From: Intestinibaculum porci
Lineage (GTDB): Bacteria > Bacillota_I > Bacilli_A > Erysipelotrichales > Coprobacillaceae
DNA: 64,000 nt
Direction: 5' to 3'
Assembly (NCBI RefSeq): GCF_003925875.1
Contig: NZ_AP019309.1
Location: forward strand, 2,728,001 to 2,792,000
The notes under the pieces are model-generated. The model worked only from the letters and a program-made list of their open reading frames with translations, ran no database searches and was not told the DNA's origin. Of the stretch, positions 21,535 through 36,744 are shown piece after piece. The stretch's first letter is position 1; each line of letters begins with the position of its first letter. Position numbers and translations under genes: made by a program.

Positions 21535-21547
21535 TTTTTACCCCCGA

Positions 21548-23740
21548 TTACTTTTTGTCAGCCGCAGCTTTTTTCTGCGTGCTCGTTTTTCTTGACGTCT
21601 TGGCTGCTGTCTTCGTGGCAGTCTTGCGTGTTGTCTTCGTTGTCGCTTTAGACGTCTTTGATGGTGCCTTTTTCGTTTCTGTCTTACTTACTGTTTTACT
21701 TTCCGCTTTTGCTTTTGGCGCAGCCTTTGTTTTGGACGCTGCTTTTTTCGCTGCCGCTTTCTTAGCTGGCGCTTTTGCTGTTTTTTCAGCTGGTTTTTCA
21801 GCTGGTTTTTCAGCTTCTTCTTTTGCCTTTTGGGCAGCCTTTGCAGCCGCTTCACGTTTTGCTTTTCTCGTTGCTAAGGTTTCTTTTCCCTTATAACTGA
21901 AGACGCAAGCACTAAATGGTGCTAATTTCACAGTAATAGACTGATCCTGATTCAGACAAGTGCCATCAACTGATTTGATTGGTTTGGTATTCAGGAAGTT
22001 ACTTCCTGTATACTTACCTTCATCTGTGTTCATGATTTCTGTATACGTGCCCTTAAATGGAACCGGAATCGTATAGCCTTCATGTTTATTGCCAATGAAG
22101 TTGAGGACAACAACGATACAGTCACCATCTGGATCATGTCTTGCATATGCAAAGACTGACTGCTGGTTATCATCGACAACTAACCATTCAAATCCTTCCG
22201 GATCATAATCAAGCTTCCATAATGCTGGATGTTCATCATAAAGCTTATTTAAATCAGCGAAGAAATGGTGGAAGGAATCATGCTGTGGATATTTCAGGAT
22301 TTCCCAGCCTAACGCTTTCTTTTCATCCCATTCCTTGTATTCGCCAAGTTCATTGCCCATGAAGTTTAACTTCTTGCCAGGATGTGTAAACATATATGTA
22401 TATAATGCTTTGGCCTGGGCAAACTTATCATCATTTAAGCCCCACATCTTATTCAGAATCGTTGCTTTGCCATGAACCACTTCATCGTGTGAGAATGGCA
22501 GAATGAAACGTTCTGAGTAGAAGTACATCATGGAGAACGTTAAAAGGTTATGGTCATACTGACGATAAACAGGATCTTCTTTGAAATAGCGAAGGGTATC
22601 GTTCATCCAGCCCATATCCCATTTATAGTCGAAACCAACACCGCCTTCATCCACTGGTTTTGTCACAAATGGGAAGTCGGTACTATCTTCAGCGATCAGC
22701 ATAACGCCTGGATATTCCTCATTCATACGTTTATTCATACGTTTGAGTAATTCGATTGCGCCATCGTTTTCGCCGATAAACTTGTTACCTTTCCAGTATA
22801 ACATATTGGATACCGCATCAAAACGGATCCCATCAATATGGAATTCTTCAGCCCAGAAATGGACCGCTGACATTAAGAATGAGCGAACTTCTTCTTTCCC
22901 GGCATCAAAATAAACAGAATCCCATTCTGAATAACGGCGATTGACATCAGCATATTCATAAACCCAGCCGCCATCAAACTGATGTAAGCCGTGCGCATCT
23001 TTAACGAAATGCGCTAATACCATATCCATAATAACCCCGATGCCGTTTTTATGACATTCATCAATAAAATGCATCAGCTGTTTTGGATTACCATAACGCG
23101 ACGTTGCACTGAAGTAACCAGTTGCCTGATAACCCCATGAGCCATCAAATGGGAATTCATTTAATGGCATTAATTCTAAGTGCGTGAACCCATTTTCTTT
23201 CGCATATGGAATAATCATTTCCGATAATTCCTCATAAGAATAGAATGTGCCGTCTTCCGTATCCGTAAATGGCTTCTTTAATTTCCATGATCCTAAGTTC
23301 GCTTCATAAATCGTCATCTTACGATCAAAGTTTTTCGTACGCTTTTTCATCCAGTCCCCATCAGTCCATGGGAAGCCGCGTAAGTCATAAACCTTAGAAG
23401 CCGTACCAGGACGGATTTCACTAAAGAAAGCATAAGGATCGGCTTTTTCAATCATGCCGCCATCAGCCTTCTCAATACGATATTTATACATTTGGAAATC
23501 TTTTACATGAGGAATCCATTTGGTCCAGATCCCGCCATTGTAATGACGTTCCATATAATCATTGTGACCGTCCCAGTTGTTGAAATCACCAATCACCTGC
23601 ACAGAGCGAGCGTTAGGTGCATAGACAGTAAAACGCACACCATCGATATTATCCACTGTTTCGGGATGTGCACCGAAAAGCTTATAAGCTTCAAGACAGT
23701 TTCCTTCATGATATAATTTAATCAAGAAATCATCTAACAT
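21548..23740 (-). CDS. glgB: 1,4-alpha-glucan branching enzyme with histone-H1-like tail
   Basis: 730 residues. The N-terminal CBM48 domain (FTVYAPNARSVQVIGDFNNW) precedes a GH13 barrel with nucleophile Asp308 (GIRFDAVSNML), acid/base Glu351 (LIAEDST) and Asp419 (FSHDEVVHGK). It makes alpha-1,6 branches in glycogen. The enzyme proper ends near residue 618. The last 112 residues (619-730) are almost only Ala, Lys, Thr, Ser, Pro and Glu and increasingly basic, which is not part of normal GlgB. The start at 23740 has GGAGG upstream; an ATG 18 bases earlier is less likely. Confidence 0.95.
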   Translation of the reverse strand: MLDDFLIKLYHEGNCLEAYKLFGAHPETVDNIDGVRFTVYAPNARSVQVIGDFNNWDGHNDYMERHYNGGIWTKWIPHVKDFQMYKYRIEKADGGMIEKADPYAFFSEIRPGTASKVYDLRGFPWTDGDWMKKRTKNFDRKMTIYEANLGSWKLKKPFTDTEDGTFYSYEELSEMIIPYAKENGFTHLELMPLNEFPFDGSWGYQATGYFSATSRYGNPKQLMHFIDECHKNGIGVIMDMVLAHFVKDAHGLHQFDGGWVYEYADVNRRYSEWDSVYFDAGKEEVRSFLMSAVHFWAEEFHIDGIRFDAVSNMLYWKGNKFIGENDGAIELLKRMNKRMNEEYPGVMLIAEDSTDFPFVTKPVDEGGVGFDYKWDMGWMNDTLRYFKEDPVYRQYDHNLLTFSMMYFYSERFILPFSHDEVVHGKATILNKMWGLNDDKFAQAKALYTYMFTHPGKKLNFMGNELGEYKEWDEKKALGWEILKYPQHDSFHHFFADLNKLYDEHPALWKLDYDPEGFEWLVVDDNQQSVFAYARHDPDGDCIVVVLNFIGNKHEGYTIPVPFKGTYTEIMNTDEGKYTGSNFLNTKPIKSVDGTCLNQDQSITVKLAPFSACVFSYKGKETLATRKAKREAAAKAAQKAKEEAEKPAEKPAEKTAKAPAKKAAAKKAASKTKAAPKAKAESKTVSKTETKKAPSKTSKATTKTTRKTATKTAAKTSRKTSTQKKAAADKK
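21551..21886 (-). repeat. Lys/Ala-rich low-complexity tail of glgB
   Basis: These 112 codons encode an imperfectly repetitive tail with units such as EKPAEKPAEKTAKAP and KTARK/KTSRK-like basic blocks. The composition resembles histone H1 and the bacterial H1-like or AlgP-like tails. Codons vary among the repeats, so this is not a recent simple expansion. Confidence 0.8.
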
Positions 23741-23766
23741 ACATATTTCCTCCATCATATATACTT

Positions 23767-23772
23767 ATTATA
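23767..23772 (-). promoter_or_regulatory. -10 element of the glgB operon
   Basis: A perfect TATAAT (minus strand 23772-23767) lies about 27 bases before the glgB start. No good -35 is seen at 17 bases, which would suit an activated promoter. Confidence 0.5.
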
Positions 23773-23801
23773 CAGGATCCGGGAAATATTTCCATTAATT
23801 T

Positions 23802-23815
23802 TCAAACCGCTTTCA
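23802..23815 (-). promoter_or_regulatory. Candidate CcpA cre site upstream of glgB
   Basis: On the minus strand it reads TGAAAGCGGTTTGA, one mismatch from the cre consensus TGWNANCGNTNWCA. It is centred about 39 bases upstream of the -10, a position from which CcpA could activate or modulate the glycogen operon. Confidence 0.45.
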
Positions 23816-23824
23816 AAAATTGTT

Positions 23825-24814
23825 TTATCTTACATTTATTTCATTAATATGACTTAAGATAATATCGCTCGTTCCATCAGTGTTTTCGCGAATTTCAATA
23901 TTATTCTTATTCACATAGTCTTCGACACTCACTGTCACACTCATATCGGTATCTGTCGTGATTTTACATTTTTCAATGGCACTCGTTAACGTATTCGCGT
24001 TAATTGTATCCTCACTATCCACCCCTAAATTTTTGAGGTTTTCTTTGGATTCTTCAGCCGCCTGGTCATTGCTCGCTAACACCTGCTGAACAATTTCAAT
24101 CGGTTTGATCACTTCCTGATGCATAACCTTCTGATTCAGCTGCTGTTTCATCAGGGCAATCGCCTGACTATCTTTCACCGAATAATTGGCTTCCGCTTTT
24201 TTGACCACTTTGGTCATCGCACTGACCTTCTGACGATCCGTTAATTTCTCTTCGCCTTTGATCCATTGCGTATTTAAATACGTATCTAATTTCCCATCAA
24301 TGGCATATTTCTTTTCAATTAAATAGAGACTGTGACGATCGATATTCACGATAATCGCTTCATCGACTGGCGCGCCGATGCCTGGCAATGTCTGCGCGCG
24401 GGAAATGCGGACATTATCCGGATCCAGCACCGATACCGGTACAAATTTATAATTCAGTTTTAACGCTGCCACAACGCGATCTCCGTCTTTATAACAATCT
24501 ACATGCAAAACCATGCAGTTTGGCATGCCTTCGATCACGCTGCCTAATTTAAAGAACTTCTCAGTAACTTCTTTAGCCTGCTCTTTAAACTTTTCATCGT
24601 TTTCAATCATCTGATTAGCTCTGAGCATCATTTCATGCATCGAGCCCACAACGACCTGTTTGATTTGATTAGAGTTTAAACCCTTTTCTACTTTTTTCTG
24701 ATAATAATCCTGGGTTGTATCATTGAGCGTCGCAAATTCATCTGATAAATGAATTTTCCGATGTTCAAAATCAATCATGTGAACAAGAATTTTATTAATA
24801 ACAATAGTATTCAC
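23825..24814 (-). CDS. Nucleoid-associated (NdpA/YejK-like) protein
   Basis: 329 residues. The N-terminus (TIVINKILVHMIDFEHRKIHLSDEF) and the alpha/beta layout match the 37-kDa nucleoid-associated family. Members bind or associate with the chromosome in Proteobacteria; roles in Bacillota are little known. I start at a GTG (24814) because GGAAGGAGGGG lies five bases upstream; the ATG at 24847 has no such site. It stands just upstream of glgB on the same strand but is separated from it by the glgB promoter region. Confidence 0.7.
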   Translation of the reverse strand: MNTIVINKILVHMIDFEHRKIHLSDEFATLNDTTQDYYQKKVEKGLNSNQIKQVVVGSMHEMMLRANQMIENDEKFKEQAKEVTEKFFKLGSVIEGMPNCMVLHVDCYKDGDRVVAALKLNYKFVPVSVLDPDNVRISRAQTLPGIGAPVDEAIIVNIDRHSLYLIEKKYAIDGKLDTYLNTQWIKGEEKLTDRQKVSAMTKVVKKAEANYSVKDSQAIALMKQQLNQKVMHQEVIKPIEIVQQVLASNDQAAEESKENLKNLGVDSEDTINANTLTSAIEKCKITTDTDMSVTVSVEDYVNKNNIEIRENTDGTSDIILSHINEINVR

Positions 24815-24861
24815 ATCGTCCCCTCCTTCCAGGGCATTATAGCACATTTCTTATTAAAAAC

Positions 24862-25506
24862 CTATTCTTCACTTAAGCGAGAAGTCACCGATGACTTCTT
24901 ATCAATGCCTTCACTCGAGCGGCGAATCAGAATCGATGTTCGAATACTCAAATTCGATAATGCATCTTTAAAAACCGAATAAGAAACGGTGCGTTTCTCC
25001 TTCACCTGATTCATAAAGGTTACACTATTGCCATCCTCTGAAACAATATAAGGAATCCGTAAATAGGTGATACGGGCATTATCGATCTTCCTTACCACCT
25101 GATTCGTTTTTTTATTCGTCACGGCGATGACATCGCCGGTCAATAAAAAAGAATAGGCGACTTTACTAGCGACCTGAGAACCGATCAGATCATTTTTATG
25201 CGCCCCGGTATATTTGACATATTTTGTAAAACTCTGTGCATTCGTTAATGAATAACCAGCCACCCGGTCATCGGCATCCAAAATAATCTGCGTTTTCTCA
25301 AAAGCGGACGAATCATGCGTCGCAATATGGCCATAAGCGCATAAAGCTGCATCCTGGGTTAAGACCTCATAAGAAAAATCCTTAGCGGAAATCTTCTCCG
25401 TTTTCATGGCATTTTTCGGCAGCTGATTAAACCCTGTCACGAGAATCGTTCCCACTAAGAGAAGGTTATATAAAATTGTCGTATGCCGTGGTAAAATCCG
25501 TGCCAT
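24862..25506 (-). CDS. Exported or membrane-anchored protein of unknown function
   Basis: 214 residues. A single N-terminal hydrophobic segment (TTILYNLLLVGTILVTGF) after a basic start suggests a signal anchor. The remainder is a soluble domain I cannot assign. The C-terminus is Ser/Arg/Lys-rich. The start at 25506 has AAAGGGG upstream. It lies 47 bases before the NdpA-like gene and may share its transcript. Confidence 0.55.
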   Translation of the reverse strand: MARILPRHTTILYNLLLVGTILVTGFNQLPKNAMKTEKISAKDFSYEVLTQDAALCAYGHIATHDSSAFEKTQIILDADDRVAGYSLTNAQSFTKYVKYTGAHKNDLIGSQVASKVAYSFLLTGDVIAVTNKKTNQVVRKIDNARITYLRIPYIVSEDGNSVTFMNQVKEKRTVSYSVFKDALSNLSIRTSILIRRSSEGIDKKSSVTSRLSEE

Positions 25507-25641
25507 CGCTTTCGCCCCTTTCAGCCCTATTCTAGCGAAATGTGCCCCGCTTAGCAACTATCAATTGATTTTCCAATCTTGTGGATTTCTAAAAAAACGC
25601 AGTGCAGTTATGTTAAAATAAGAATAAAGGATGTGACTTTT

Positions 25642-26874
25642 ATGAGTGAACCTAAAAGAAAAAGAATTAATCCCCGGAAGGATCAATTCCTCTTTTATAT
25701 TATCTTTGCGATCATCTTCGCCTATATCGTCTTTCACCTCAATAACGTCTTAGACTGGCTGTTAAGTGTCGCCTCCCTCGCGACCCCTTTCTATATCGCC
25801 TTAGTGATCGCCTTTTTATTAAATATTCCGATGCGCGGCTTTGAACATTTATTCGACCGCCTCGGCAAAAAGATTAAGCTTTTCAATTTCAAAAAAGATA
25901 CCAAGCGCGTTGTCGCGATCTTCTCAACGCTCGCCGTCTTTGTTTTGATTATCGTTCTCTTTACCAGCATCATTGTCCCACGTATCGGAGACAGCATCTC
26001 GATGATCTTCTCCAACCTGAATGATTATGCCGTCCGTTTAGCCAACTGGCTCAACAAAATGACGCGTACGTTTCATCTCAAGAAGACTTATACGACCAGC
26101 GATGTCAACAACTTCTTTGATTCCGTCAATTTAAATACCATTTTGTCCACATTAGGCAACTTTGTGACGAGTGATGACAACGCCTCGACAGCAAGCGTCG
26201 TCAATTCCATTTCCGGTACCACCGTCACTACGATCACAGCCTTCTTTATGGCCGTTTACCTGCTTTTCAATAAAGAGAAACATATCACCCAGTTTAGAAA
26301 AGTGCTATGTTACTTCTTTGGCGCTGATCGCGCCGTACAGATTCTCGAAATCTGCGAAGAAGGCTCACATTATTTCAATAGCTTTATCACCGGTCAGGTA
26401 TTAGAAGCGACCGTCTTTATGACCGAAATCTACATTATGACCAAAGTCTTTCACTTTCCCTTTGCGGAACTGATCGCCGTCTGCGCGTTCCTGTTCTCAT
26501 TTATTCCGATGTTTGGCTCATTCTTGACCCTTTGTATCGGCACCGTCTTAGTGGCGGCCGCAGATTCTAAGGATATCTTCTTATTTATTGTGCTCTTCGT
26601 CATCACCCAGCAGTTCGAAGGCAACGTCGTCTACCCGCGTATCGTCGGCAAGAAAGTCGGCATCAGCGGTCTCTATGTCTTGATCGGCATTACCTTCTTT
26701 GGCAACCTTTGGGGCATCTTCGGCGTCGTGGCCGGCGTCCCGATCACCGCCTTGCTTTACGCCACGCTCTCTCGTCTGATCAATATTTCCCTGTATCGCC
26801 GAGGCATTTATGTCACCCGAGAACATATCGCCAAAACCGATGAAGACGGCAATAAAACAAGTAATCTGATCTAG
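25642..26874 (+). CDS. AI-2E family transporter-like membrane protein
   Basis: 410 residues with about eight membrane segments. The C-terminal block LFVITQQFEGNVVYPRIVGKKVGISGLYVLIGI is the PerM/AI-2E family signature, here quoted in part as QQFEGNVVYPRIVG. Members range from AI-2 exporters to Na+/H+ antiporters, so the substrate is unknown. I start at 25642, preceded by AAAGGATG; 63 bases of upstream frame lack a ribosome site. It is divergent from the 24862-25506 gene. Confidence 0.85.
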   Translation: MSEPKRKRINPRKDQFLFYIIFAIIFAYIVFHLNNVLDWLLSVASLATPFYIALVIAFLLNIPMRGFEHLFDRLGKKIKLFNFKKDTKRVVAIFSTLAVFVLIIVLFTSIIVPRIGDSISMIFSNLNDYAVRLANWLNKMTRTFHLKKTYTTSDVNNFFDSVNLNTILSTLGNFVTSDDNASTASVVNSISGTTVTTITAFFMAVYLLFNKEKHITQFRKVLCYFFGADRAVQILEICEEGSHYFNSFITGQVLEATVFMTEIYIMTKVFHFPFAELIAVCAFLFSFIPMFGSFLTLCIGTVLVAAADSKDIFLFIVLFVITQQFEGNVVYPRIVGKKVGISGLYVLIGITFFGNLWGIFGVVAGVPITALLYATLSRLINISLYRRGIYVTREHIAKTDEDGNKTSNLI

Positions 26875-26894
26875 CGCAGGGCGCTAGATCTTTT
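26868..26894 (+). terminator. Terminator of the AI-2E family gene
   Basis: A perfect ten-pair stem, GATCTAGCGC with GCGCTAGATC, then TTTT. The stop codon lies in the left arm. The right arm overlaps the 3' end of the convergent small gene. Confidence 0.85.
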
Positions 26895-27105
26895 CTATTT
26901 GCCAGCAGCCCTGTTTATAATAAAGACGCATGAGCTGGCCTTCACAAAAACAGTCATAAAGCATCCCTTCCGCGCAGGGACGCTTTTGTACAATACGCTT
27001 GATCCAATGCTTTGTTTTCACCCCATACTCTTCCCAGATAATAATTAATGGTCGCATAAGTCCTTCTTTATTTGTCACAATAACCACATCGATTGCACTT
27101 CTCAT
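26884..27105 (-). CDS. Small protein of unknown function, coupled to dinB
   Basis: 73 residues, basic, with three Cys, and no signal peptide or membrane helix. Its ATG overlaps the dinB stop by four bases, the usual mark of translational coupling. I do not recognise a family. Small partners of Y-family polymerases occur in Gram-positive SOS operons (YolD-like proteins, for example), but no such similarity is evident here. Confidence 0.6.
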   Translation of the reverse strand: MRSAIDVVIVTNKEGLMRPLIIIWEEYGVKTKHWIKRIVQKRPCAEGMLYDCFCEGQLMRLYYKQGCWQIEKI

Positions 27106-28334
27106 TTCAGATACCCCACCGGATGAATGACATTTTCTTCTAAGGGATTAAAGTCAGCTAATTCCTGATCTTCTAAGACGATCGCCTTACCAATGGCATG
27201 ATAGCCAAAACGCTCACGAATCGCATCAATGGTCTGATCTAACTGCTTATGGCAGTCATGTTTTTCCAGATCATCAAACAGCGATAACTGTTCCACTCCG
27301 TCATCTTTCTTTAACGAAGATACCGTCACATTAACGGAGCGAAAGATACCATCACGGATATTTTCTTTCACTAGTGTCATCGCCATATCAAGAATTTCAT
27401 AACTGACATTGGTTGCCCGCTCTAACTTACGCTGACGCGAGAAATAACGTAAATTACTGCCGCGTAAGCCGATCCGTACGACCGCTCCTTTTAAGCCAGC
27501 CTGCTTCAGGCGAGTAGCGACGCTTTCACAAAGAATCGTAAGCACGATTTTTAAATCATTGAGGCCGTTCATATCCTTACAGGTGGTAATCCCATTGCCA
27601 ACCGATTTCATGCCTTCATAAAGCGGCTGGACTTCGCTTTCATCATAGCCATTAGCAAAATACCAGAGGTATTCCCCCATCTTACCTAAAAAGCTTTTAA
27701 TGATCCCTTTGGGCATGGTGGCCAAATCGCCCACCGTGCCAATTCCCCGGGCTCGCAGTTTCGGCGCCGTCCGCACGCCAACATAGAAAAGATCTTCAAT
27801 TGGTAAAGGCCAGATGATCTTTTGATAGTTATCTGGCATAATCACATCAAAGCCGCGCTTTTTATGAAGATCAGAGCCCATCTTCGCAAAGATCTTATTA
27901 TAAGAAACACCCATTGAGACATTGATGCCGCATTCTTCATAGACGCGCTTTTGAATCGTTTGAGCGATCATCACCGGATCGCCAAACAGCGCTTGCGAAT
28001 GCGTCAAATCAATCCATGCTTCATCTAAACCAAAACTTTCGACGGCATCAGTGTACTGTCGATAAATATCTTTCACCTTGGTCGTATAATAGATGTAATC
28101 GTCATAATGTGGCAGAATAATGAGTAAATCCGGACAAACCTGCCGCGCCTCCCGCAAACTCATCGCTGTTTTCACGCCGCTAGCTTTCGCCAAATCATTT
28201 TTCGCAAGAATAATGCCATGACGTAATTCTTCATGTCCGCCGACAGCCATCGGCACCGCTTTTAAATCAGGATGCATCATCTCCTCAATCTGCGCATAAC
28301 AATGATTAATGTCACTATGGACAATAAATCGCAT
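27102..28334 (-). CDS. dinB: Y-family DNA polymerase (DinB/Pol IV-like)
   Basis: 410 residues of the ImpB/MucB/SamB family. The catalytic Asp8 is in HSDINHCYAQIEEM (steric-gate Tyr13), and the second acidic pair is Asp104-Glu105 in FGLDEAWID. A little-finger domain follows (VRIGLRGSNLRYFSRQRKLE). The enzyme copies damaged DNA. The start at 28334 has GAAGGGAG a few bases before it. It is divergent from a LexA-like repressor, and a dyad covers its promoter, so it is probably damage-inducible. The small 26884 gene follows in the same operon. Confidence 0.9.
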   Translation of the reverse strand: MRFIVHSDINHCYAQIEEMMHPDLKAVPMAVGGHEELRHGIILAKNDLAKASGVKTAMSLREARQVCPDLLIILPHYDDYIYYTTKVKDIYRQYTDAVESFGLDEAWIDLTHSQALFGDPVMIAQTIQKRVYEECGINVSMGVSYNKIFAKMGSDLHKKRGFDVIMPDNYQKIIWPLPIEDLFYVGVRTAPKLRARGIGTVGDLATMPKGIIKSFLGKMGEYLWYFANGYDESEVQPLYEGMKSVGNGITTCKDMNGLNDLKIVLTILCESVATRLKQAGLKGAVVRIGLRGSNLRYFSRQRKLERATNVSYEILDMAMTLVKENIRDGIFRSVNVTVSSLKKDDGVEQLSLFDDLEKHDCHKQLDQTIDAIRERFGYHAIGKAIVLEDQELADFNPLEENVIHPVGYLK

Positions 28335-28357
28335 CTCAATCACTCCCTTCATTCCCC

Positions 28358-28385
28358 ATTATAGAGATAAAGTTTCCTAATACAA
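28358..28385 (-). promoter_or_regulatory. Promoter of dinB
   Basis: On the minus strand TTGTAT (28385-28380), 16 bases, then a perfect TATAAT (28363-28358). The left arm of the dyad at 28369-28401 lies in the spacer. Confidence 0.65.
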
Positions 28386-28401
28386 CCTCTTTAGAAACTT
28401 T
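28369..28401. promoter_or_regulatory. Dyad operator candidate in the dinB / LexA-like intergenic region
   Basis: AAAGTTTCCTAA (28369-28380) and TTAGAAACTTT (28391-28401) are inverted copies with one unmatched base, separated by ten bases. The dyad spans the spacer and -35 of the dinB promoter, where a bound repressor would block polymerase. It does not resemble the Bacillus LexA box. Confidence 0.5.
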
Positions 28402-28439
28402 CGCATATATCATCCGCTTTCTTCCTTTTTATTTGTATC

Positions 28440-28456
28440 ATAATATGCTATATTAT
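28440..28456. promoter_or_regulatory. A+T palindrome at the promoter of the LexA-like gene
   Basis: ATAATAT and ATATTAT flank a three-base centre, 15 bases before the ATG and over the likely -10 of the repressor gene. It may be an autoregulatory site or simply promoter sequence. Confidence 0.3.
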
Positions 28457-28470
28457 TGTTAGGTGATAGT

Positions 28471-29067
28471 ATGGAATTAAAAGAATTCATTCAACAGTAT
28501 AAAGAAGAACAGCAAATCAATAACTCAGAAATGGCCAGACGTCTTGGCGTCACCAAATCCACGATCCATAAATGGTTAAATGGTGATGTCAAAAAACTGC
28601 AGAGTGAAACCCTGCAAAAGCTTTCCCAGGCCCTTGGCTATGATGTGGAAGCCGTCTTAAATGGTCAGGTGATCGAATTTAAAAAACCGATTCTCGGCTA
28701 TGTAAAGGCTGGCTATAACTTATATGCGGAAGAAAACTATTTAGGCTACGAAGACGTGACAGCCGCGGAAAATCGTCAAGGTGATTACTTTTTACAAGTG
28801 ACTGGTGATTCGATGATTGGTGAAGGTATTATGGATGGTTCCCTCGCCTATATCAAATCCTGTTCGGATGTCCCAAGCGGGACAATTGCCGTCTGTTTAA
28901 TTGGCGGTGAAGAAGTGACCATCAAGCGCGTGATCAAAAAAGAAGACATGATCATTCTTGAAGCCGCCAACCCACAGGTGAGCGCGCGTTACTTCTCCGC
29001 TGAAGAAGCAGCAACGCTCCCAGTTCAGATTATTGGCCGTCTCGTTTACGTTAAAACCGTCTTTTAG
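28471..29067 (+). CDS. LexA-like autoproteolytic repressor (XRE HTH + S24 peptidase)
   Basis: 198 residues. An XRE-type helix-turn-helix lies at about 16-40 (NSEMARRLGVTKSTIHKWLN). The S24 peptidase half carries a cleavage site Ala80-Gly81 (GYVKAGYN), the nucleophile Ser114 (VTGDSMIGEGIMDG) and the general base Lys152 (EVTIKRV). This is the architecture of LexA/CI-type repressors that self-cleave on RecA filaments, but with a phage-type HTH. It is divergent from dinB and probably controls it. The start at 28471 is preceded by AGGTGA. Confidence 0.85.
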   Translation: MELKEFIQQYKEEQQINNSEMARRLGVTKSTIHKWLNGDVKKLQSETLQKLSQALGYDVEAVLNGQVIEFKKPILGYVKAGYNLYAEENYLGYEDVTAAENRQGDYFLQVTGDSMIGEGIMDGSLAYIKSCSDVPSGTIAVCLIGGEEVTIKRVIKKEDMIILEAANPQVSARYFSAEEAATLPVQIIGRLVYVKTVF

Positions 29068-29118
29068 CTATTTTTTGAATATGTAACCCTTACCATTTCA
29101 AAATCTTGTCTATTCTCA

Positions 29119-29147
29119 TTGCATTCATAAATTGCGTCCATTACAAT
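29119..29147 (+). promoter_or_regulatory. Promoter of the zinc-ribbon protein gene
   Basis: TTGCAT (29119-29124), a 17-base spacer and TACAAT (29142-29147). Confidence 0.5.
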
Positions 29148-29182
29148 AAGGAAAAGAAAAGAATATGGTAGGTGATATTTTC

Positions 29183-30127
29183 ATGAAATGTGAGTTATGC
29201 GGCCGTGAAGTCGATGCCACAAAAAAGATCCATCTTGATGATTACGCCCTGGAAGCTCAGGTCTGCGCTAGTTGTTTTGATCGGATCAACGGTGCTTACT
29301 TAAAAGAAGTTAAAGCACCAGCGAAAGTAACGATTGAAAAGGCTCGTAATGAATTACAATATGTGGATGAAAAAGGACAGACTTTACCGGACTTTGTGCC
29401 TAAGTTTGTAATCAAGAAAGGTGAAGAAAGTCATTTCTTTGGCCTGATGCAGTTTACACGCGATATTGCTGGCGGCAAGCGCTATTATTATCGCGCTCTA
29501 GAAATCTATCCAACATCAACTGATCATTTGACGCATTATGAAACCTCTTATGCGTTTAATATCTTTGATGCAGATACCAAAGAAGATCAGGATCAGGCAC
29601 GTCTTCAGGCTTATCAAACCCTTAAAGAAAAGATGGCCCAGTTAATAGCCAATAACGCTGATGATGAAAGCGGCGTCGTGCGACTTAGCGTGGACGATCA
29701 GGACCATACGAAGATCGTTATGAATGGGGAAGAGAAAAAACTTTCTGATATGGAGGACGTTTTAAATCCATTAGAAGGCTTTACGATTTCTTATCAGATT
29801 CATGATTCCTATGATCCAGCCCCTTTAGCGCATACCGTTTACTTCCCTGAAGTCATCGAGGAAGATACCTTCTATAACGAATTATTTGATATCATTATTA
29901 CTTTCTCTTCTTTAGAGAACTTTATTCCTTTAGATAATGTGCAAAAGTTTGCCCTCTTCTATCGCAAACTGTTAAAGAAGTTTAAATATTTTGCAGCAAT
30001 TAAACCTGATGAAGCAGCTTTATCCGGATTCATGATGTTCGACTTGTTAAAACCATTAGAATCAGATGATCAGTACTTCATCGAAGTTGTCAAAAAGCAA
30101 TTACAGGATATCATGAAGACTTTATAG
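29183..30127 (+). CDS. Zinc-ribbon-containing protein of unknown function
   Basis: 314 residues. The N-terminus has two Cys pairs (MKCELCGREV and QVCASCFDRI) forming a likely zinc ribbon. The remaining 270 residues are an acidic mixed alpha/beta region with no motif I recognise and no membrane segment. The start at 29183 has TAGGTGAT upstream. It has its own promoter and terminator and looks monocistronic. Confidence 0.6.
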   Translation: MKCELCGREVDATKKIHLDDYALEAQVCASCFDRINGAYLKEVKAPAKVTIEKARNELQYVDEKGQTLPDFVPKFVIKKGEESHFFGLMQFTRDIAGGKRYYYRALEIYPTSTDHLTHYETSYAFNIFDADTKEDQDQARLQAYQTLKEKMAQLIANNADDESGVVRLSVDDQDHTKIVMNGEEKKLSDMEDVLNPLEGFTISYQIHDSYDPAPLAHTVYFPEVIEEDTFYNELFDIIITFSSLENFIPLDNVQKFALFYRKLLKKFKYFAAIKPDEAALSGFMMFDLLKPLESDDQYFIEVVKKQLQDIMKTL

Positions 30128-30150
30128 TACCCATTGCGGGTACTATTTTT
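30125..30150 (+). terminator. Terminator of the zinc-ribbon gene
   Basis: TAGTACCC (30125-30132) pairs with GGGTACTA (30138-30145), followed by a T-run. Confidence 0.85.
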
Positions 30151-30189
30151 ATTTGAATTGAAAACCTCAGCAATTTATAAGCACAAAAA

Positions 30190-30215
30190 GCGATCACCCA
30201 TGAAGAAATGATCGC
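30190..30215 (-). terminator. Second (distal) terminator of the man operon
   Basis: GCGATCA pairs with TGATCGC, and on the minus strand a TTTTT run follows. It lies just beyond the main terminator at 30228-30254, forming a tandem pair. Confidence 0.5.
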
Positions 30216-30227
30216 CTCTTATAAAAC

Positions 30228-30254
30228 TAAAAGGGTGCCCGAAGACACCCTTTA
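30228..30254 (-). terminator. Main terminator of the man operon
   Basis: An eight-pair stem of AAAGGGTG with CACCCTTT, followed on the minus strand by a T-rich run. Confidence 0.75.
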
Positions 30255-30258
30255 AACT

Positions 30259-30630
30259 TTATTTTCTGATGAAGATCGCTTTAAGACCGCGACCAATCAC
30301 CTGGAAGAAATTGAGCGATTTATACATTCGCTCTTCTGGCACATACTTACGCACCGCTCTTAATAACTGCTTGTTATCGGGAGCACTGAAGGTAAAAGAC
30401 CCATTACGCTTGGTAAAGATCGCAAAGCGATTGATCCATTTTCCAAAGAGGACTGAAGCGGAAATATAATCAACTTCTTCCCAAGGAATCTGAATATAAT
30501 CTTCGACGTTCTTATCATTATAATATTCAAAGGCATGATCCCCGACCATCACTTTCCCCGTTGTCCCAAGACCGCGGTGAGAAGAAGCCGCAATTGTGAA
30601 ATCAACCTTTGTATTTAATGATTGTGCCAT
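30259..30630 (-). CDS. manO: DUF956 family protein (ManO)
   Basis: 123 residues of DUF956, found almost only as the last gene of mannose-type PTS operons, as here. Recognisable segments are GLGTTGKVMVGDHAFEYYN and YIQIPWEEVDYISASV. It is cytosolic with no membrane helix. The family is thought to modulate the PTS or its expression, but the mechanism is not settled. It follows manN by 17 bases. Confidence 0.85.
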   Translation of the reverse strand: MAQSLNTKVDFTIAASSHRGLGTTGKVMVGDHAFEYYNDKNVEDYIQIPWEEVDYISASVLFGKWINRFAIFTKRNGSFTFSAPDNKQLLRAVRKYVPEERMYKSLNFFQVIGRGLKAIFIRK

Positions 30631-30647
30631 AATATTTCTCCTTTAGA

Positions 30648-31562
30648 TTACATGAAGTTGCAAACTCGTCCGATGATACCAACAACGAATAAACCGATGA
30701 TGATAGCGATTGGTGAGATACCCTTCTTTAATAATTTACAGATTAATAAAGTTAATAAGACAGCTGCTAAACCAGGAATTAACTGATCTAAGTTACCCTG
30801 TAAAGTTGTCACTTTAGCCTGATTTAAACCAGTTGCACCTAATGAAGAGTACTGTTCTAAGGCTGATTTAATACCAGCTGCACCTTTTGGTAATTTATCC
30901 CATTCGATATAAGCACCTTTCTGCTGCTGAACAGTTGAGACAACAGGTGTGAAGCTGATTGATACCCAGCGTTCTACTAAGGCACCGATGATGAACATAC
31001 CTAAGATGGTTGCACCAGAAGTGATTTTACCAAGAAGACCACCAGATAAGTCATTGGTGATCTGAGTACCTACACGGTAACCAAATTCCTGAGTATACCA
31101 TAAGAATGCGAAACGCATAACGTTCCATACAATGAAGAATAGTAATGGACCAACGATAGATCCAGACATTGCTAATGATGCACCTAAGGCACCAATGATA
31201 GGACGAGCAGTAAACCAGAATACTGGGTCACCGACACCAGCAAGTGGGCCCATCATCCCGACTTTAACACCCTGAATAGCCTGGTCATCGATTGCCGCAC
31301 CATTAGCTCTTTCTTCTTCAAGAGCTAAGGTTACACCCATAACTGGCGCTGATACATAAGGATGTGTGTTATAGAATTCCAGATGTCTCTTTAAAGCGGC
31401 AACCTGGTCTTCTTTGTTTGTATATAATTTCTTGATTGCAGGGATGATTGAATAACACCAACCACCATTCTGCATACGTTCATAGTTCCATGACCCCTGA
31501 AGGAACTGATGACGCCAACATACCGAAAAACGGTCATGTTTTGATAACTTAATTTCAGCCAT
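30648..31562 (-). CDS. manN: Mannose-family PTS EIID component
   Basis: A 304-residue EIID protein with the family segments FQGSWNYERMQNGGW-like near the N-terminus (here LQGSWNYERMQNGGW) and KVGMMGPLAGVGDPVFWFT in the middle. Several hydrophobic helices lie toward the C-terminus. With EIIC it forms the membrane channel that phosphorylates and imports mannose, glucose or related sugars. GAAGGAGG lies before the ATG. Order manL-manM-manN-manO on the minus strand. Confidence 0.94.
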   Translation of the reverse strand: MAEIKLSKHDRFSVCWRHQFLQGSWNYERMQNGGWCYSIIPAIKKLYTNKEDQVAALKRHLEFYNTHPYVSAPVMGVTLALEEERANGAAIDDQAIQGVKVGMMGPLAGVGDPVFWFTARPIIGALGASLAMSGSIVGPLLFFIVWNVMRFAFLWYTQEFGYRVGTQITNDLSGGLLGKITSGATILGMFIIGALVERWVSISFTPVVSTVQQQKGAYIEWDKLPKGAAGIKSALEQYSSLGATGLNQAKVTTLQGNLDQLIPGLAAVLLTLLICKLLKKGISPIAIIIGLFVVGIIGRVCNFM

Positions 31563-31582
31563 TTGTTTTTCCTCCTTCAGTA

Positions 31583-32401
31583 TTAATAGTCATTTAAGAT
31601 ATCGCCAAGAGGATCGCCGCTTCCGCCGCCGTTTCCTCCGCCTTTTTTAGCTTCTTCTTTTAATCCTAAGTAAATCAGGGCTAAAGAGATACCAATTAAA
31701 CCTAAAGCGATTAATGTTAATTCAGAAATTGCAGCTAAAACGAAACCTAAGATAAAGAATGGCCATACTTCTTTGTTTGCCATCATGTTGATAACCATTG
31801 CATAACCTACGGCAGCAACCATACCACCGCCGACAGTCATACCACCTGTTAACCAGGCAGGCATTGCATTTAATGCGCTTGTTACAGCTTTAGCTGGAAC
31901 GACACATAATGCAGCTGCAGGGATGGCAATACGAATACCCTGTAAGCAAATGGCTAAGATCTGCCATACTTCGATGCCTTTAAAGTCACCTTTTTCAGCA
32001 CATCTGTCCATCGCATGAACCATAGGGATAGCGATTGTACGACATAACATAGTTAAGAATAAGCCGGCTACTGAAAGTGGAACGGCTACAGCGATTGATG
32101 CAGAGATGGCATCTTTAGTATTAACGTGAGAACCACCGTTTAAAGCTAAAACCATGATAATTGCAGATGCAACGGATGCTAAGGCAGCATCTGGTGCAAC
32201 GGCTGCACCGATGTTGGCCCAGCCTAATGCCATCATCTGTAAAGAACCACCAAGCATGATTCCTTCAGTTAAATGGCCAGTAACTAACCCGATTAATGTA
32301 CAAGCAACAATTGGCTGATGGAATTCGAATTCATCAAGGATCCCTTCCATACCAGCTAAGAATGCTACGACAATAACCAGGATAATGTTAATAGCGTTCA
32401 T
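31583..32401 (-). CDS. manM: Mannose-family PTS EIIC component
   Basis: 272 residues, multi-pass. Family segments include AFLAGMEGILDEFEFHQPIV and LIGLVTGHLTEGIMLGGSLQ. A Gly/Ser-rich cytosolic tail (GGGNGGGSGDPLGD) ends the protein. It forms the translocation channel with EIID. A strong AGGAGG precedes the ATG. Confidence 0.94.
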   Translation of the reverse strand: MNAINIILVIVVAFLAGMEGILDEFEFHQPIVACTLIGLVTGHLTEGIMLGGSLQMMALGWANIGAAVAPDAALASVASAIIMVLALNGGSHVNTKDAISASIAVAVPLSVAGLFLTMLCRTIAIPMVHAMDRCAEKGDFKGIEVWQILAICLQGIRIAIPAAALCVVPAKAVTSALNAMPAWLTGGMTVGGGMVAAVGYAMVINMMANKEVWPFFILGFVLAAISELTLIALGLIGISLALIYLGLKEEAKKGGGNGGGSGDPLGDILNDY

Positions 32402-32420
32402 ATTATAAATTTCCTCCTGA

Positions 32421-33419
32421 TTAATTCATATGTAATTCTGTTTTGGCTTTTTTCATAATTGCATTGAAGTCTTCAACAGGATCTCCTGGGACTTTCTGCA
32501 CTTTAATCTTAATACCTAATTTTGTTAATTCTTCTAACGCTTTGACGTCATTCTGATCCATTGCAACGGCTTTTGTACAAACAACTTTGCCTTCGCTGGC
32601 CGCAATTGAACCTAAGTTGATTTCTTTAATCTGGACGCCGCCCTTAACAGCTGCTAAAGCATCTTCAGGGTTTTCGAATAACAATAAGGCTTTCGTATTA
32701 CCAAAACGCGTATCCTTATCGACTTTACACATTTTGTCGATTGGAACGACGTGCGCGCGAACCCCTGGTGGCGCAGCCTGTTCGATCATCTGTTTACGTA
32801 ACTTATCTTTTGCGACGTTATCAGAAACAGCGATGATACGATTTGGCTGTGTTGCTTTGGTCCAAGCCGTTGCGACCTGACCATGTAATAAACGCGTATC
32901 GATACGAGCTAAAACATATTTAATATGGCCATCACCGATGACTGTTCCTTCAGGAATTGCACCACGTGGTGCAGCATCCTGAGCAGCTGGTTTAGCCGCT
33001 TCATCTTCACCTTCAACTTTAATTGTTTCTGGTAAAATTCTGATACCTTCTCTAGATGTCTTTGCAACATGAGACGCAATGTCTGCAGCGCTTTCAGTGC
33101 CAAGACGTAATGCATATGATTCAATGAGCATTGGTAAATTTAAACCAGTAACAACAACCCAGTGACCTTCATGACCATCGATTAATGCGCTGGCCTGGTT
33201 GAATGGTGTTCCACTCCAAAGGTCGATTAAGAATAGAATTTCATCCTGCTGTGAGAAAGTGGCAATTGCTTCTTCCATCTTTTTACGGATGTCTTCTGGA
33301 CCTTCGCTAGGTAACAGTGTTACAGGCTTAACATCGGCCTGATCCCCAAAGATCATTGATCCAGACTGGAAAATGCCTTCTGCAAATTTTCCATGGCTGG
33401 CAATGACAATTCCTACCAT
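32421..33419 (-). CDS. manL: Mannose-family PTS EIIAB component
   Basis: 332 residues. EIIA (about 1-135) has phospho-acceptor His9 (IVIASHGKFAEG), and EIIB (about 165-332) has His179 (RIDTRLLHGQVATAW). They are joined by an Ala/Pro-rich linker. The protein relays phosphate from HPr to the sugar. It is the first gene of manLMNO, with AAGGAG before the ATG. Substrate specificity within the mannose/glucose/fructose group cannot be read from sequence. Confidence 0.95.
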   Translation of the reverse strand: MVGIVIASHGKFAEGIFQSGSMIFGDQADVKPVTLLPSEGPEDIRKKMEEAIATFSQQDEILFLIDLWSGTPFNQASALIDGHEGHWVVVTGLNLPMLIESYALRLGTESAADIASHVAKTSREGIRILPETIKVEGEDEAAKPAAQDAAPRGAIPEGTVIGDGHIKYVLARIDTRLLHGQVATAWTKATQPNRIIAVSDNVAKDKLRKQMIEQAAPPGVRAHVVPIDKMCKVDKDTRFGNTKALLLFENPEDALAAVKGGVQIKEINLGSIAASEGKVVCTKAVAMDQNDVKALEELTKLGIKIKVQKVPGDPVEDFNAIMKKAKTELHMN

Positions 33420-33502
33420 AAAATTTCTCCTTTTTATTATTTTTTAATACAACTCTCGTCAGAGCTTCAAAAAAAGTTAATGTAAACGAATTCGCAATTC
33501 CT

Positions 33503-33530
33503 ATTGTAACCATTTTCATAATTTGTTCAA
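33503..33530 (-). promoter_or_regulatory. Promoter of manLMNO
   Basis: On the minus strand TTGAAC (33530-33525), 16 bases, then TACAAT (33508-33503). The leader is about 80 bases. No sigma-54 (-24/-12) element was found, unlike many LevR/ManR-controlled man operons. Confidence 0.5.
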
Positions 33531-33546
33531 TAAAATATGGGTTTTA

Positions 33547-33597
33547 TTGTGTCACAACATTTGTCACATAAATATATTGACATTCGTCATATGACAG
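33547..33597. promoter_or_regulatory. Cluster of TGTCA/TGACA motifs upstream of the man promoter
   Basis: Within 50 bases there are TTGTGTCACAA (a perfect 11-base palindrome, 33547-33557), TTTGTCACA, TTGACA and GTCATATGAC (a perfect palindrome). The spaced TGTCA/TGACA halves form further dyads. The cluster ends 17 bases upstream of the -35, a typical activator position. The regulator is unknown. The rest of the gap, 33598-33753, shows nothing but A+T-rich sequence. Confidence 0.4.
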
Positions 33598-33753
33598 ATG
33601 TAATATTGCGAAAAATTGTAAAAATCCATTATCATACCTTATGAAAATGAACTGAATTTGAATTATATGTTACATAAAATGTCTCATTTTAATATATTGA
33701 TATCTTTCATTCTATTTTAATGATATTTCATGCATATTATTTCCAAGACATGA

Positions 33754-33779
33754 AAAAACCGGTAAAACTACCGGTTTTT
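33754..33779 (-). terminator. Terminator of the opp operon
   Basis: A strong stem of AAAACCGGTA with TACCGGTTTT, T-runs on both sides; it closes oppABCDF on the minus strand. Confidence 0.85.
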
Positions 33780-33786
33780 ACTAAAA

Positions 33787-34731
33787 TTAATATGGTTTTC
33801 CTGCATTTTTCTTAAACGTTTCAAATTCTTCATCTGTCGCTAAGACAAAATGGGTATCAGTGACCTTCTGCTGTTTGCCTTTCGTATAGTCCAGACCGCT
33901 TGTCGCATAGTCATAAGTGAATGACTTTCTCGTCTTTTCCACTCTTGGATTAGGATGTGGAATAGCTGAAAGCAGAGATTTAGTATATGGATGTAATGGA
34001 TTAGCGAAGATTTCTTCAGATGTGCCTGTTTCCACTAAGTGGCCTAAATGGAGAACCCCGATACGATCAGAGAAATATTTAACCATTGATAAGTCATGGG
34101 CGATGAATAAATAAGCTGCTCCCGTTTCCTTCTGCATTTTCTTCATCAGGTTGACAACCTGGGCCTGAATGGAAACGTCTAAGGCCGAAATCGCTTCATC
34201 GGCAATGATTAAATCCGGCTGCATAATCAGGGCACGAGCAATCCCGATACGCTGACGCTGACCACCAGAGAACTGATGTGGATAACGGTTGGCATGTTCT
34301 CTTGATAAACCGACCATCTCTAACATCTTATACACTTTTTCATTTCTTTCTTCGATTGAAGAATAAGCATGATGGATATCTAACCCCTGAGCAACGATAT
34401 CAATAACTTTTTTACGTGGGTTTAAGCAGGCCATTGGATCCTGGAAGATCATCGCCATCTTAGTACGTAAAGTACTGATCGCCTGTTTACTCATATGGCC
34501 GGAAATATCCTGTCCTTCGAAAATGATATGACCGCCCGTTGGTTCATACAGACGGATAATTGAACGACCAGTCGTTGATTTTCCAGAACCTGATTCCCCA
34601 ACCAGACCATAGGTTTCACCAGCTTTGATATCAAAGGAAATACCATCCACGGCTTTGACAGTCAATTTACGTGAGACTTTGAAGTACTGCTTCAAATCTT
34701 TGACTTCAAGAATTGTTTCACCTTTATTCAT
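33787..34731 (-). CDS. oppF: Oligopeptide ABC transporter ATPase OppF
   Basis: 314 residues. Walker A GLVGESGSGKSTTGRS, Walker B LIIADEAISALD and the ABC signature QFSGGQRQRIGIARAL are intact, and the C-terminal Opp/Dpp extension begins NPLHPYTKSLLSAIP. It powers peptide import together with OppD. I start at 34731, with GAAGGTG upstream, giving an eight-base overlap with oppD. Last gene of the operon. Confidence 0.95.
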   Translation of the reverse strand: MNKGETILEVKDLKQYFKVSRKLTVKAVDGISFDIKAGETYGLVGESGSGKSTTGRSIIRLYEPTGGHIIFEGQDISGHMSKQAISTLRTKMAMIFQDPMACLNPRKKVIDIVAQGLDIHHAYSSIEERNEKVYKMLEMVGLSREHANRYPHQFSGGQRQRIGIARALIMQPDLIIADEAISALDVSIQAQVVNLMKKMQKETGAAYLFIAHDLSMVKYFSDRIGVLHLGHLVETGTSEEIFANPLHPYTKSLLSAIPHPNPRVEKTRKSFTYDYATSGLDYTKGKQQKVTDTHFVLATDEEFETFKKNAGKPY

Positions 34732-35815
34732 GAGCAGCACCTTCTTTCTTCATTTTATCAATTCTCCTGCGTAATGATTCTGGCATATCAATTTTTGGCG
34801 CCCGTGGATCCATTAACCACGATGCGACCTTATGAGTCTTACTGCCAGGCACCGAGAACATTGGCGGTTCAAGACGCTTATCAATGTTCAAAGCGTATTT
34901 ATTACGTGGGGCAAAGGCATCCCCCTGCACTTCATGGGTTAAGTTTGGCGGCGTCCCTGGAATTGTATATAATTCATCATCATCGGTGTCTAAGTCCGGC
35001 ATCGCTGAGAGAAGCCCCCATGTATAAGGGTGACGAGGATCATAGAAGATTTCATCAATGGTCCCTTTTTCAATAATTTTACCAGCATACATAACGTTGA
35101 CGAAGTCAGCAACTTTCGCGACAACGCCTAAGTCATGGGTAATGTAGATAACAGAAATATTCTTTTTCTTCTGTAAGTCCTGAATTAATTCGAGGATCTG
35201 CGCCTGGATAGTGACATCCAAAGCCGTTGTTGGTTCATCACAGATGAGAACGTAAGGATCGCAGGCTAAAGCAATCGCGATAACGACACGCTGTCTCATC
35301 CCGCCTGATAACTGATGTGGATATTCCTTCATGCGGGCTTCCGGATTGACAATCCCAACTTCATCTAATAACTGTACCGCACGTTTCCATGCTTCTTCCT
35401 TTGGCGTATGGTAATGATAGATCATTGGTTCCATGATCTGTTTACCAATTGTCATGGTTGGGTTTAATGATGTCATTGGATCCTGGAAGACCATCGCAAT
35501 CTTACGACCACGAATTTCTCTCTGGATTTCCTTTTCTGTTAATTTGCAGATGTCCACAGTATGTGGTTCACCCGTTTTTTCATCATGCCAGGTATAGAGA
35601 ATTTCCCCTGAATCAATCGTTCCGTTTTTCGCTAAGATACCCATAACGGCTTTCGTTGTAACGGATTTTCCTGAACCAGATTCCCCAACGATGGCAATCG
35701 TTTCTCCTTCATATAAGTCAAAGTTAACGCCACGGATGGCTTTTAACTTCTTTCCTTCAGTTTTGAAAGAGATATTTAAGTCATTAATTTCAAGAATTTT
35801 TTCTTTTTTGGCCAT
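34724..35815 (-). CDS. oppD: Oligopeptide ABC transporter ATPase OppD
   Basis: 363 residues with Walker A AIVGESGSGKSVTTKA, ABC signature LSGGMRQRVVIAIAL and Walker B VLICDEPTTALD. The C-terminal Opp region (YDPRHPYTWGLLSAMP) is present; the family's cluster-binding Cys residues are not evident. It pairs with OppF. AGGAG lies before the ATG, two bases after oppC ends. Confidence 0.95.
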   Translation of the reverse strand: MAKKEKILEINDLNISFKTEGKKLKAIRGVNFDLYEGETIAIVGESGSGKSVTTKAVMGILAKNGTIDSGEILYTWHDEKTGEPHTVDICKLTEKEIQREIRGRKIAMVFQDPMTSLNPTMTIGKQIMEPMIYHYHTPKEEAWKRAVQLLDEVGIVNPEARMKEYPHQLSGGMRQRVVIAIALACDPYVLICDEPTTALDVTIQAQILELIQDLQKKKNISVIYITHDLGVVAKVADFVNVMYAGKIIEKGTIDEIFYDPRHPYTWGLLSAMPDLDTDDDELYTIPGTPPNLTHEVQGDAFAPRNKYALNIDKRLEPPMFSVPGSKTHKVASWLMDPRAPKIDMPESLRRRIDKMKKEGAAHE

Positions 35816-35817
35816 AA

Positions 35818-36744
35818 TTACATCTCCTTCATAGTTGGATCAAGGGCATCACGGAGCCCATCACCAAATAAGTTGAAGCTTAACATTAAGACTGCTAAGA
35901 CAATTGATGGAATCAGCATCTGATATGGATAGACTAAGAAATAATCAAAACCATCATTGATTAATGTCCCTAAAGATGCTCTTGGAACAGTTAAACCTAA
36001 GCCGACGAAAGCCAAGTAAGCTTCGTAGAAGATCGCATTTGGCACGGTCATCATCGACATGATGATCAGCTGACCAAAGATGTTTGGTAAGATTTCTTTA
36101 AAGATTAAGAACATATCACTTGCCCCTAAGGTACGGGATGCTAAAACATATTCATCTTCCTTAACCTTTAAAACCTGGGCACGGGTAATACGTGACATTG
36201 GAATCCATTCGGTAAAGATTAAGGCTAAGATAACGGTTGTTAAAGAAGGTTTCATGACCGTTAATAAGATTGTTAAGATAACTAATGTTGGAATGGAGTT
36301 AATGATTTCCTGGATACGCTGTAAGATCGCATCGACCATTCCGCCAAAGTAACCAGAGATTAACCCATAAGTCATCCCGACAACGACGTCGATCACAACG
36401 GCCACTACGGCAATGAATAAAGAAATACGGGTACCAGTCCAAAGACGAGCCCATAAATCACGACCAAATGAGTCCGTTCCAAACAAATGGGCAGCACTTG
36501 GTGCTAAGTTGATATTCGCTGTATCTACCCCATCATAAGTGTATTTAGAGAAGATTGGCGCAAAGATCGCCATTAAAGTAATTAAGATAATCAGGATTAC
36601 CCCGATAACCGCCCCTTTGTTTTCAAAGAAACGGGCTAAGATATCTTTCCATAAAGGACGGGCAGGTTCTACCTCATCGATCATGATATTCTGTTTATCG
36701 CCGATTAATTCAAAATCATCCGGCTGAAATTTATAGTCATCCAT
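35818..36744 (-). CDS. oppC: Oligopeptide ABC transporter permease OppC
   Basis: 308 residues. A cytosolic N-terminus leads into six membrane helices; the loop with the inner-membrane-component signature reads EWIPMSRITRAQVLKVKEDE. The family motif HLFGTDSFGRDLWARLWTGT is clear. It forms the channel with OppB. GGGGG-type ribosome site, 3-base gap after oppB. Confidence 0.95.
   Translation of the reverse strand: MDDYKFQPDDFELIGDKQNIMIDEVEPARPLWKDILARFFENKGAVIGVILIILITLMAIFAPIFSKYTYDGVDTANINLAPSAAHLFGTDSFGRDLWARLWTGTRISLFIAVVAVVIDVVVGMTYGLISGYFGGMVDAILQRIQEIINSIPTLVILTILLTVMKPSLTTVILALIFTEWIPMSRITRAQVLKVKEDEYVLASRTLGASDMFLIFKEILPNIFGQLIIMSMMTVPNAIFYEAYLAFVGLGLTVPRASLGTLINDGFDYFLVYPYQMLIPSIVLAVLMLSFNLFGDGLRDALDPTMKEM

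Follow-up and report, generated by a model that had tools for sequence, protein, structure and literature searches.

The window analysed here is a stretch of 64,000 nucleotides from the gut bacterium Intestinibaculum porci, corresponding to positions 2,728,001-2,792,000 of a single-contig genome of 3,212,924 bases. It contains a gene for a LexA-like repressor lying opposite a dinB-type polymerase gene, which is followed by a short gene that the preliminary description had not listed (Table 1). Longer versions of both divergent frames appear in the list of open reading frames, one for the repressor from a TTG at 28456 and one for dinB from 28352, the latter of which would overlap the promoter. 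Pfam assigns the polymerase to the IMS family (E 4.1e-40, run on 27105-28337), and a consensus scan predicts a near-consensus promoter in front of it (TTGTAT-N16-TATAAT). Downstream of the repressor, at 29165-30127, lies a gene for a 320-aa protein with a CxxC-type start and no Pfam match.

Table 1. Features of the repressor-dinB unit, in window coordinates.
Feature	Position	Strand	Remarks
Small protein, 73 aa	26884-27105	-	start overlaps dinB stop (ATGA); same family as gene at second dyad
dinB-type Y-family DNA polymerase	27102-28334	-	410 aa, ATG at 28334 (MRF); IMS, IMS_C
dinB promoter (predicted)	28358-28385	-	-10 TATAAT 28358-28363; -35 TTGTAT 28380-28385, inside dyad; consensus match only
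Candidate operator dyad AAAGTTTC-N17-GAAACTTT	28369-28401		core GTTTC-N17-GAAAC, 27 bp
XRE-HTH/S24 LexA-like repressor	28471-29067	+	198 aa, ATG; Ala80-Gly81, Ser114, Lys152

The repressor combines an XRE/CI-type helix-turn-helix (HTH_3, E 1.7e-10) with a full S24 domain (Peptidase_S24, E 1.5e-21), a scissile Ala-Gly pair, and a Ser/Lys dyad, features expected of S24 SOS repressors other than LexA. The preliminary description had already identified an S24/XRE protein facing a Y-family polymerase, and both the Pfam matches and the numbering of the residues bear this out; A80, G81, S114, and K152 are unchanged in 15 of 15 aligned sequences. Among sequences of solved structure, LexA proteins come closest, with alignments that span the C-terminal part (best match 3k2z, E 2.2e-10). 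The S24 domain, the Ala-Gly site, the Ser/Lys dyad, and a TIGR00498 score of 74.9 bits are points of likeness to canonical LexA. Unlike it, the repressor has no match to LexA_DNA_bind (PF01726) at E<=0.001 in Pfam, a threshold at which its N-terminus matches HTH_3, HTH_19, and HTH_26, and its TIGR00498 score falls short of the 110.95 bits set as the cut-off for LexA equivalogs. The cleavage motif suggests that the protein may cut itself with the assistance of RecA.

Searches for S24 and LexA_DNA_bind domains found no canonical LexA in this genome. Four proteins match S24, namely the repressor and three that read as signal-peptidase-like, which leaves the window repressor as the sole protein with both a helix-turn-helix and an S24 domain. 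LexA_DNA_bind gives one weak match (23.3 bits, E 1.6e-4), and the 361-aa frame that contains it lies apart from all S24 matches. Among 60 genomes of relatives, the domain exceeds the cut-off in five and is strong once, in a 96-aa frame of genome G027. There, dinB, the 96-aa frame, and the small protein stand in a row (G027:C49:19002-20689), perhaps a second, LexA-type route in the genus of this genome.

Between the two divergent genes (28335-28470) lies the inverted repeat AAAGTTTCCTAATACAACCTCTTTAGAAACTTT, 69 bp from the repressor start codon. It covers the dinB -35 box, in line with its earlier placement on the polymerase promoter. In its exact 16-base form with N17, the dyad occurs at two places in the genome, both on promoters. 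The second copy, 179 kb away (G000:C1:2935582-2935614, where G000 is the Intestinibaculum genome), covers the -35 box of a gene that stands alone and encodes an 87-aa protein; the promoter of this gene (TTGATT-17-TATAAT) has its -35 box at the dyad centre, as at dinB. With three mismatches allowed, 31 places were found vs 70 for a backwards control pattern. The core GTTTC-N16-18-GAAAC occurs at 16 places vs 35 for its control; the two real sites are included in the 16, and the others were not taken. We likewise regard a dyad with two mismatches at G000:C1:2871416 as a chance occurrence, intergenic and with no repair gene downstream. Because the dyad sits on the -35 box, upstream of the expected transcript start, it is neither a terminator nor a leader hairpin of dinB. 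Bacillus and Proteobacteria have LexA boxes of other sequence, so the distinction that had been drawn from them stands.

A search with the repressor protein found matches in 48 of the 60 relatives. We compared 80 repressor loci from named genomes, some of which are represented twice; most are titled Erysipelotrichaceae/Erysipelotrichia or bear the names of genera of that group, among them Sharpea, Massilimicrobiota, Longibaculum, Longicatena, Allobaculum, Faecalicoccus, Merdibacter, and Erysipelothrix. The divergent gene is related to the Y family at 60 loci, encodes the small protein alone at 11, and is neither of these at nine. A DinB-like gene diverges within 400 bp at 46 loci, with the small protein next in 29 of them. 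Reading of the remaining 34 gave 11 umuC-type genes, two shortened dinB relatives, one broken dinB, 11 small proteins alone, and nine loci with none. At four Massilimicrobiota-type loci (L155, L156, L162, and L164), the gene opposite the repressor is a shortened dinB relative of 301-317 aa that, aligned with the window dinB by MAFFT, lacks long internal stretches and the positions of the catalytic Asp and Asp-Glu. Such genes perhaps encode a dead polymerase retained as a regulated accessory, a case comparable to that of ImuB.

The dyad is found in relatives as well. In a genome of the same genus (G001), GTTTCATTATGCAATATATTATGAAAC lies at dinB and GTTTCTTAACATTGCATATCAGGAAAC lies 57 bp before the orthologue of the small-protein gene at the second dyad; the detached small-protein gene of Sharpea (G018 and G026) has no clear dyad. 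We built a paired model, R1, on 18 dyads that lie between genes in relatives and in the window. At 45 of the 80 loci it has a match immediately upstream of the repressor, at least 13 of these 45 being training sites. The other 35 loci have no R1 match at the repressor, and some of them carry other palindromes. In 45 of 47 dyads (the 45 repressor-adjacent plus-strand R1 matches of the 80 loci, the window, and locus L006), the -35 box of the divergent gene falls within 2 bp of one offset from the dyad centre; both this position and the palindromy of R1 matches are partly built in, since the training palindromes have a central TTGAAA-like stretch. Together with 17 off-locus sites (L108 and L120 left out), these dyads form a set of 64, in which the half-sites are GTTGCATA (22), GTTGCGTA (7), GTTTC forms (12), and rarer forms. 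GTTGC is the commonest half-site in relatives, and GTTTC is the form seen here. Across the 64 sites, an arm agrees with its own partner at 7.23 of 8 positions vs 5.10 of 8 for partners from other sites. The lineage box as it appears from these alignments is a family of dyads with drifting half-sites that keep their place on the promoter, and not one sequence. Conservation in relatives, the second genomic site, and the fixed position at the -35 box support the view, put forward in the preliminary description, that the dyad behaves as an operator. Two findings had been named there as speaking against it, a separate canonical LexA whose box controls dinB and a dyad absent elsewhere and from relatives; neither was borne out, because no canonical LexA was found and the dyad occurs both in relatives and at a second site in the genome.

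In the Intestinibaculum genome, R1 finds the dinB site alone (36.6 bits, E 6e-4), which is one of its 18 training sites; the second dyad scores 18.8 bits (E 0.38), is absent from the genome-wide R1 list, and was found independently of the model. Two weak R1 matches (E 8-9) front no repair gene by reading and were set aside. Since the exact search adds one site to that of R1, the regulon here would consist of two units. A site upstream of recA and uvrB, where a search had been proposed, is missing from this genome, and none of the sites listed lies at its umuC-type gene or second dinB.

Across the 60 whole genomes, R1 matches 43 distinct places at E<=0.05, of which 19 are at repressor genes and 24 elsewhere. 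Nine of these 24 have a Y-family gene within 300 bp downstream, as judged against 37 Y-family places from genomes with sites; by eye, the remaining Y-family places are on other contigs or far away. In G011 and G044, dinB and the repressor gene are no longer neighbours, yet dinB carries the operator. Reading and Pfam matches add rarA (G006 and G022) and dnaE (G019) as targets. In G006 and G022, the operator also precedes the gene of an S41/PDZ protease that directly precedes uvrB, and a local scan adds G019, giving three uvrB operons with an operator among 40 loci scanned; uvrB occurs in 59 genomes. A carboxyl-terminal protease of this type is unexpected in a damage operon (sites at G006:C6:628365, G022:C1:87583, and G019:C22:38398). 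recA is present in 59 of the 60 genomes and has no convincing operator upstream at any of the 50 loci scanned (30 + 20), and by eye none of the R1 places from the 60-genome search is near recA. With the operator at recA in 0 of 50 loci, and at uvrB in none in the own genome and three of 40 loci scanned, this is not the picture of a full SOS regulon, and the best reading of the sites is a small regulon centred on mutagenesis. The suggestion that the lineage may use its own SOS box is therefore supported in part, by the operator family in relatives; as a full SOS box it finds no support, given two units in the own genome and the recA and uvrB counts.

Further R1 sites lie at a TnpB-type gene (G022), at a gene for a 321-aa protein of no known function (G011), inside an open reading frame (G007), and near an esterase-like gene (G014), and others at E 0.01-0.05 occur in G005 (C52), G027 (C99), G051, G037, and G013. 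In G044, a near-perfect operator (G044:C29:43009) stands before a gene for a 282-aa XRE protein without an S24 domain.

The short gene behind dinB is translationally coupled to it and belongs to the regulated unit. Its 73-aa product is related to the 87-aa protein at the second dyad (P0001; BLASTP E 8e-7; hhalign probability 98.6 against the family alignment). A family model from an alignment of 22 members (A3) finds both genes in the genome, the dinB-coupled one with E 3.7e-12 (G000:C1:2754890-2755096). Family members are about 80 residues long and have no Pfam match better than E 0.0086 and no NCBIfam match better than E 0.026, the weak matches being scattered; P0001 has no PHROG match, and PDB sequences offer no relative (best E 1.2). 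AlphaFold2 predicts, with high confidence, an all-beta protein of six strands (pLDDT 95.2, pTM 0.82). No fold relative emerged from the PDB, with none of 280 Foldseek matches at E<=0.001 and a best VIA-align Z of 4.6, so an unlisted family is conceivable. The protein may resemble DUF6504. Of 392 genomes drawn from the phylum, 29 have it; 28 of these belong to the same order and the other to the same class.

This protein is found after dinB, alone opposite the repressor, and, here, as a second copy under the same operator. Its coupling to dinB points to a polymerase accessory, and its solitary position at 11 of the 80 loci suggests a function independent of a dinB neighbour. We tentatively consider that it could be an order-specific SOS effector, either a polymerase partner or a damage checkpoint, from a family that has no name, and that it could form the true core of the regulon. 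In any case, it represents an unstudied family that is probably induced by DNA damage.

The interpretation we favour, with a probability of about 0.8, is that the repressor belongs to an SOS module resembling those of HdiR and FddR, which replaces LexA, has a lineage-specific, evolving operator, and is cleaved with RecA to derepress dinB and the small proteins. The S24 protein would be the LexA substitute of the cell. A dimer would bind the dyad through its XRE-type helix-turn-helix, mask the -35 box, and thereby silence both the dinB-small-protein operon and the second small-protein gene. Upon DNA damage, RecA filaments would cause the repressor to cut itself at Ala80-Gly81 by means of Ser114 and Lys152; the cleaved repressor would leave the dyad, and the translesion polymerase and small proteins would be made. 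The dyad may co-evolve with the helix-turn-helix, which would explain why genera have letters of their own within the same geometry.

One could instead suppose that the repressor senses a signal other than RecA filaments, so that the module answers stress rather than forming an SOS system. One report describes such a RecA-independent LexA-like regulator, IrvR of Streptococcus mutans (PMC7101444), and recA is no target here; we nevertheless consider this improbable, as the genes targeted serve translesion synthesis and repair, the Ala-Gly/Ser/Lys set does not vary in the alignment, and recA is present in all genomes but one. A little less probable still is that a CI-type repressor was left behind by a prophage, with the dyad as an old phage operator, dinB as a passenger, and no cellular damage response. 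Phage repressors share the XRE-S24 architecture, the top PHROG match is phrog_4 (transcriptional repressor, E 4.2e-30), and 100 phage records match, with a top identity of 34.9%. However, the same divergent module occurs in many genera of the order, the open reading frames at 20000-36000 of the window look cellular, and at other loci the operator is found again in front of cellular repair genes; a phage origin of the repressor is, moreover, compatible with its being a LexA substitute. It is very improbable that the dyad is a palindrome by chance, forms an RNA hairpin, or serves some unrelated regulator: palindromes do arise in AT-rich promoters, and the control was the commoner pattern at three mismatches, but an exact second copy sits on the promoter of a related gene, the place is conserved in relatives, and a hairpin would not be expected ahead of the transcript.

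Systems of the kind favoured here have been published for Streptococcaceae, Bacteroidetes, and Francisella. HdiR of Lactococcus and Streptococcus is described as a LexA-like S24 repressor that cleaves itself with the aid of RecA where LexA is absent (PMC8565304). It shares with the present repressor a clustering with phage repressors, the absence of LexA, and a small regulon on an error-prone polymerase; in contrast, Streptococcaceae are a different order, and HdiR of S. thermophilus reaches cinA-recA (PMC8565304), whereas no recA site was found here. The present module would control dinB and a small protein through its own operator, and the likeness is drawn from the description of HdiR and not from its sequence. 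FddR of Francisella is portrayed as a phage-type HTH_3 and S24 protein whose self-contained unit includes a divergent gene, which is dinB in some species; the FddR operator is GTG-N11-CAC, compared with GTTTC-N17-GAAAC here, and in relatives of our genome sites reach rarA, dnaE, and uvrB (PMC13148647). In the non-canonical LexA of Bacteroidetes, a phage-like S24 repressor likewise replaces LexA and palindromes diverge by lineage, but the SOS regulon is large and includes recA, and the motifs are GGA-N5-TTC and CTAA-N5-TTAG instead of a dyad of 27-28 bp (PMC8565304).

A literature search, to which subscription papers were mostly inaccessible, retrieved nothing on a system of this kind in Erysipelotrichia. 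The module would fill this gap: Erysipelotrichia with no recognizable LexA, among which gut bacteria are numerous, seem to possess inducible mutagenesis under an operator of their own. The Francisella paper proposes that networks grow from divergent units (PMC13148647), and the present module fits this model closely. Several stages are found within one order: the repressor opposite dinB, a umuC-type polymerase, or the small protein; dinB moved with its operator; and operators added in front of rarA, dnaE, and the S41-uvrB operon. The growth of SOS networks from self-contained divergent units thus becomes testable by comparison.

Elsewhere in the Intestinibaculum genome (G000:C1:2664500-2673500), we read a umuC-type gene with a YolD-like neighbour. 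An inverted repeat lies before the umuC copies; since a T run comes directly after it, we took it for a terminator. A umuC-type stretch of 702 bp is present there twice together with its upstream region, the copies being 99.7% identical and flanking a transposase-like gene.
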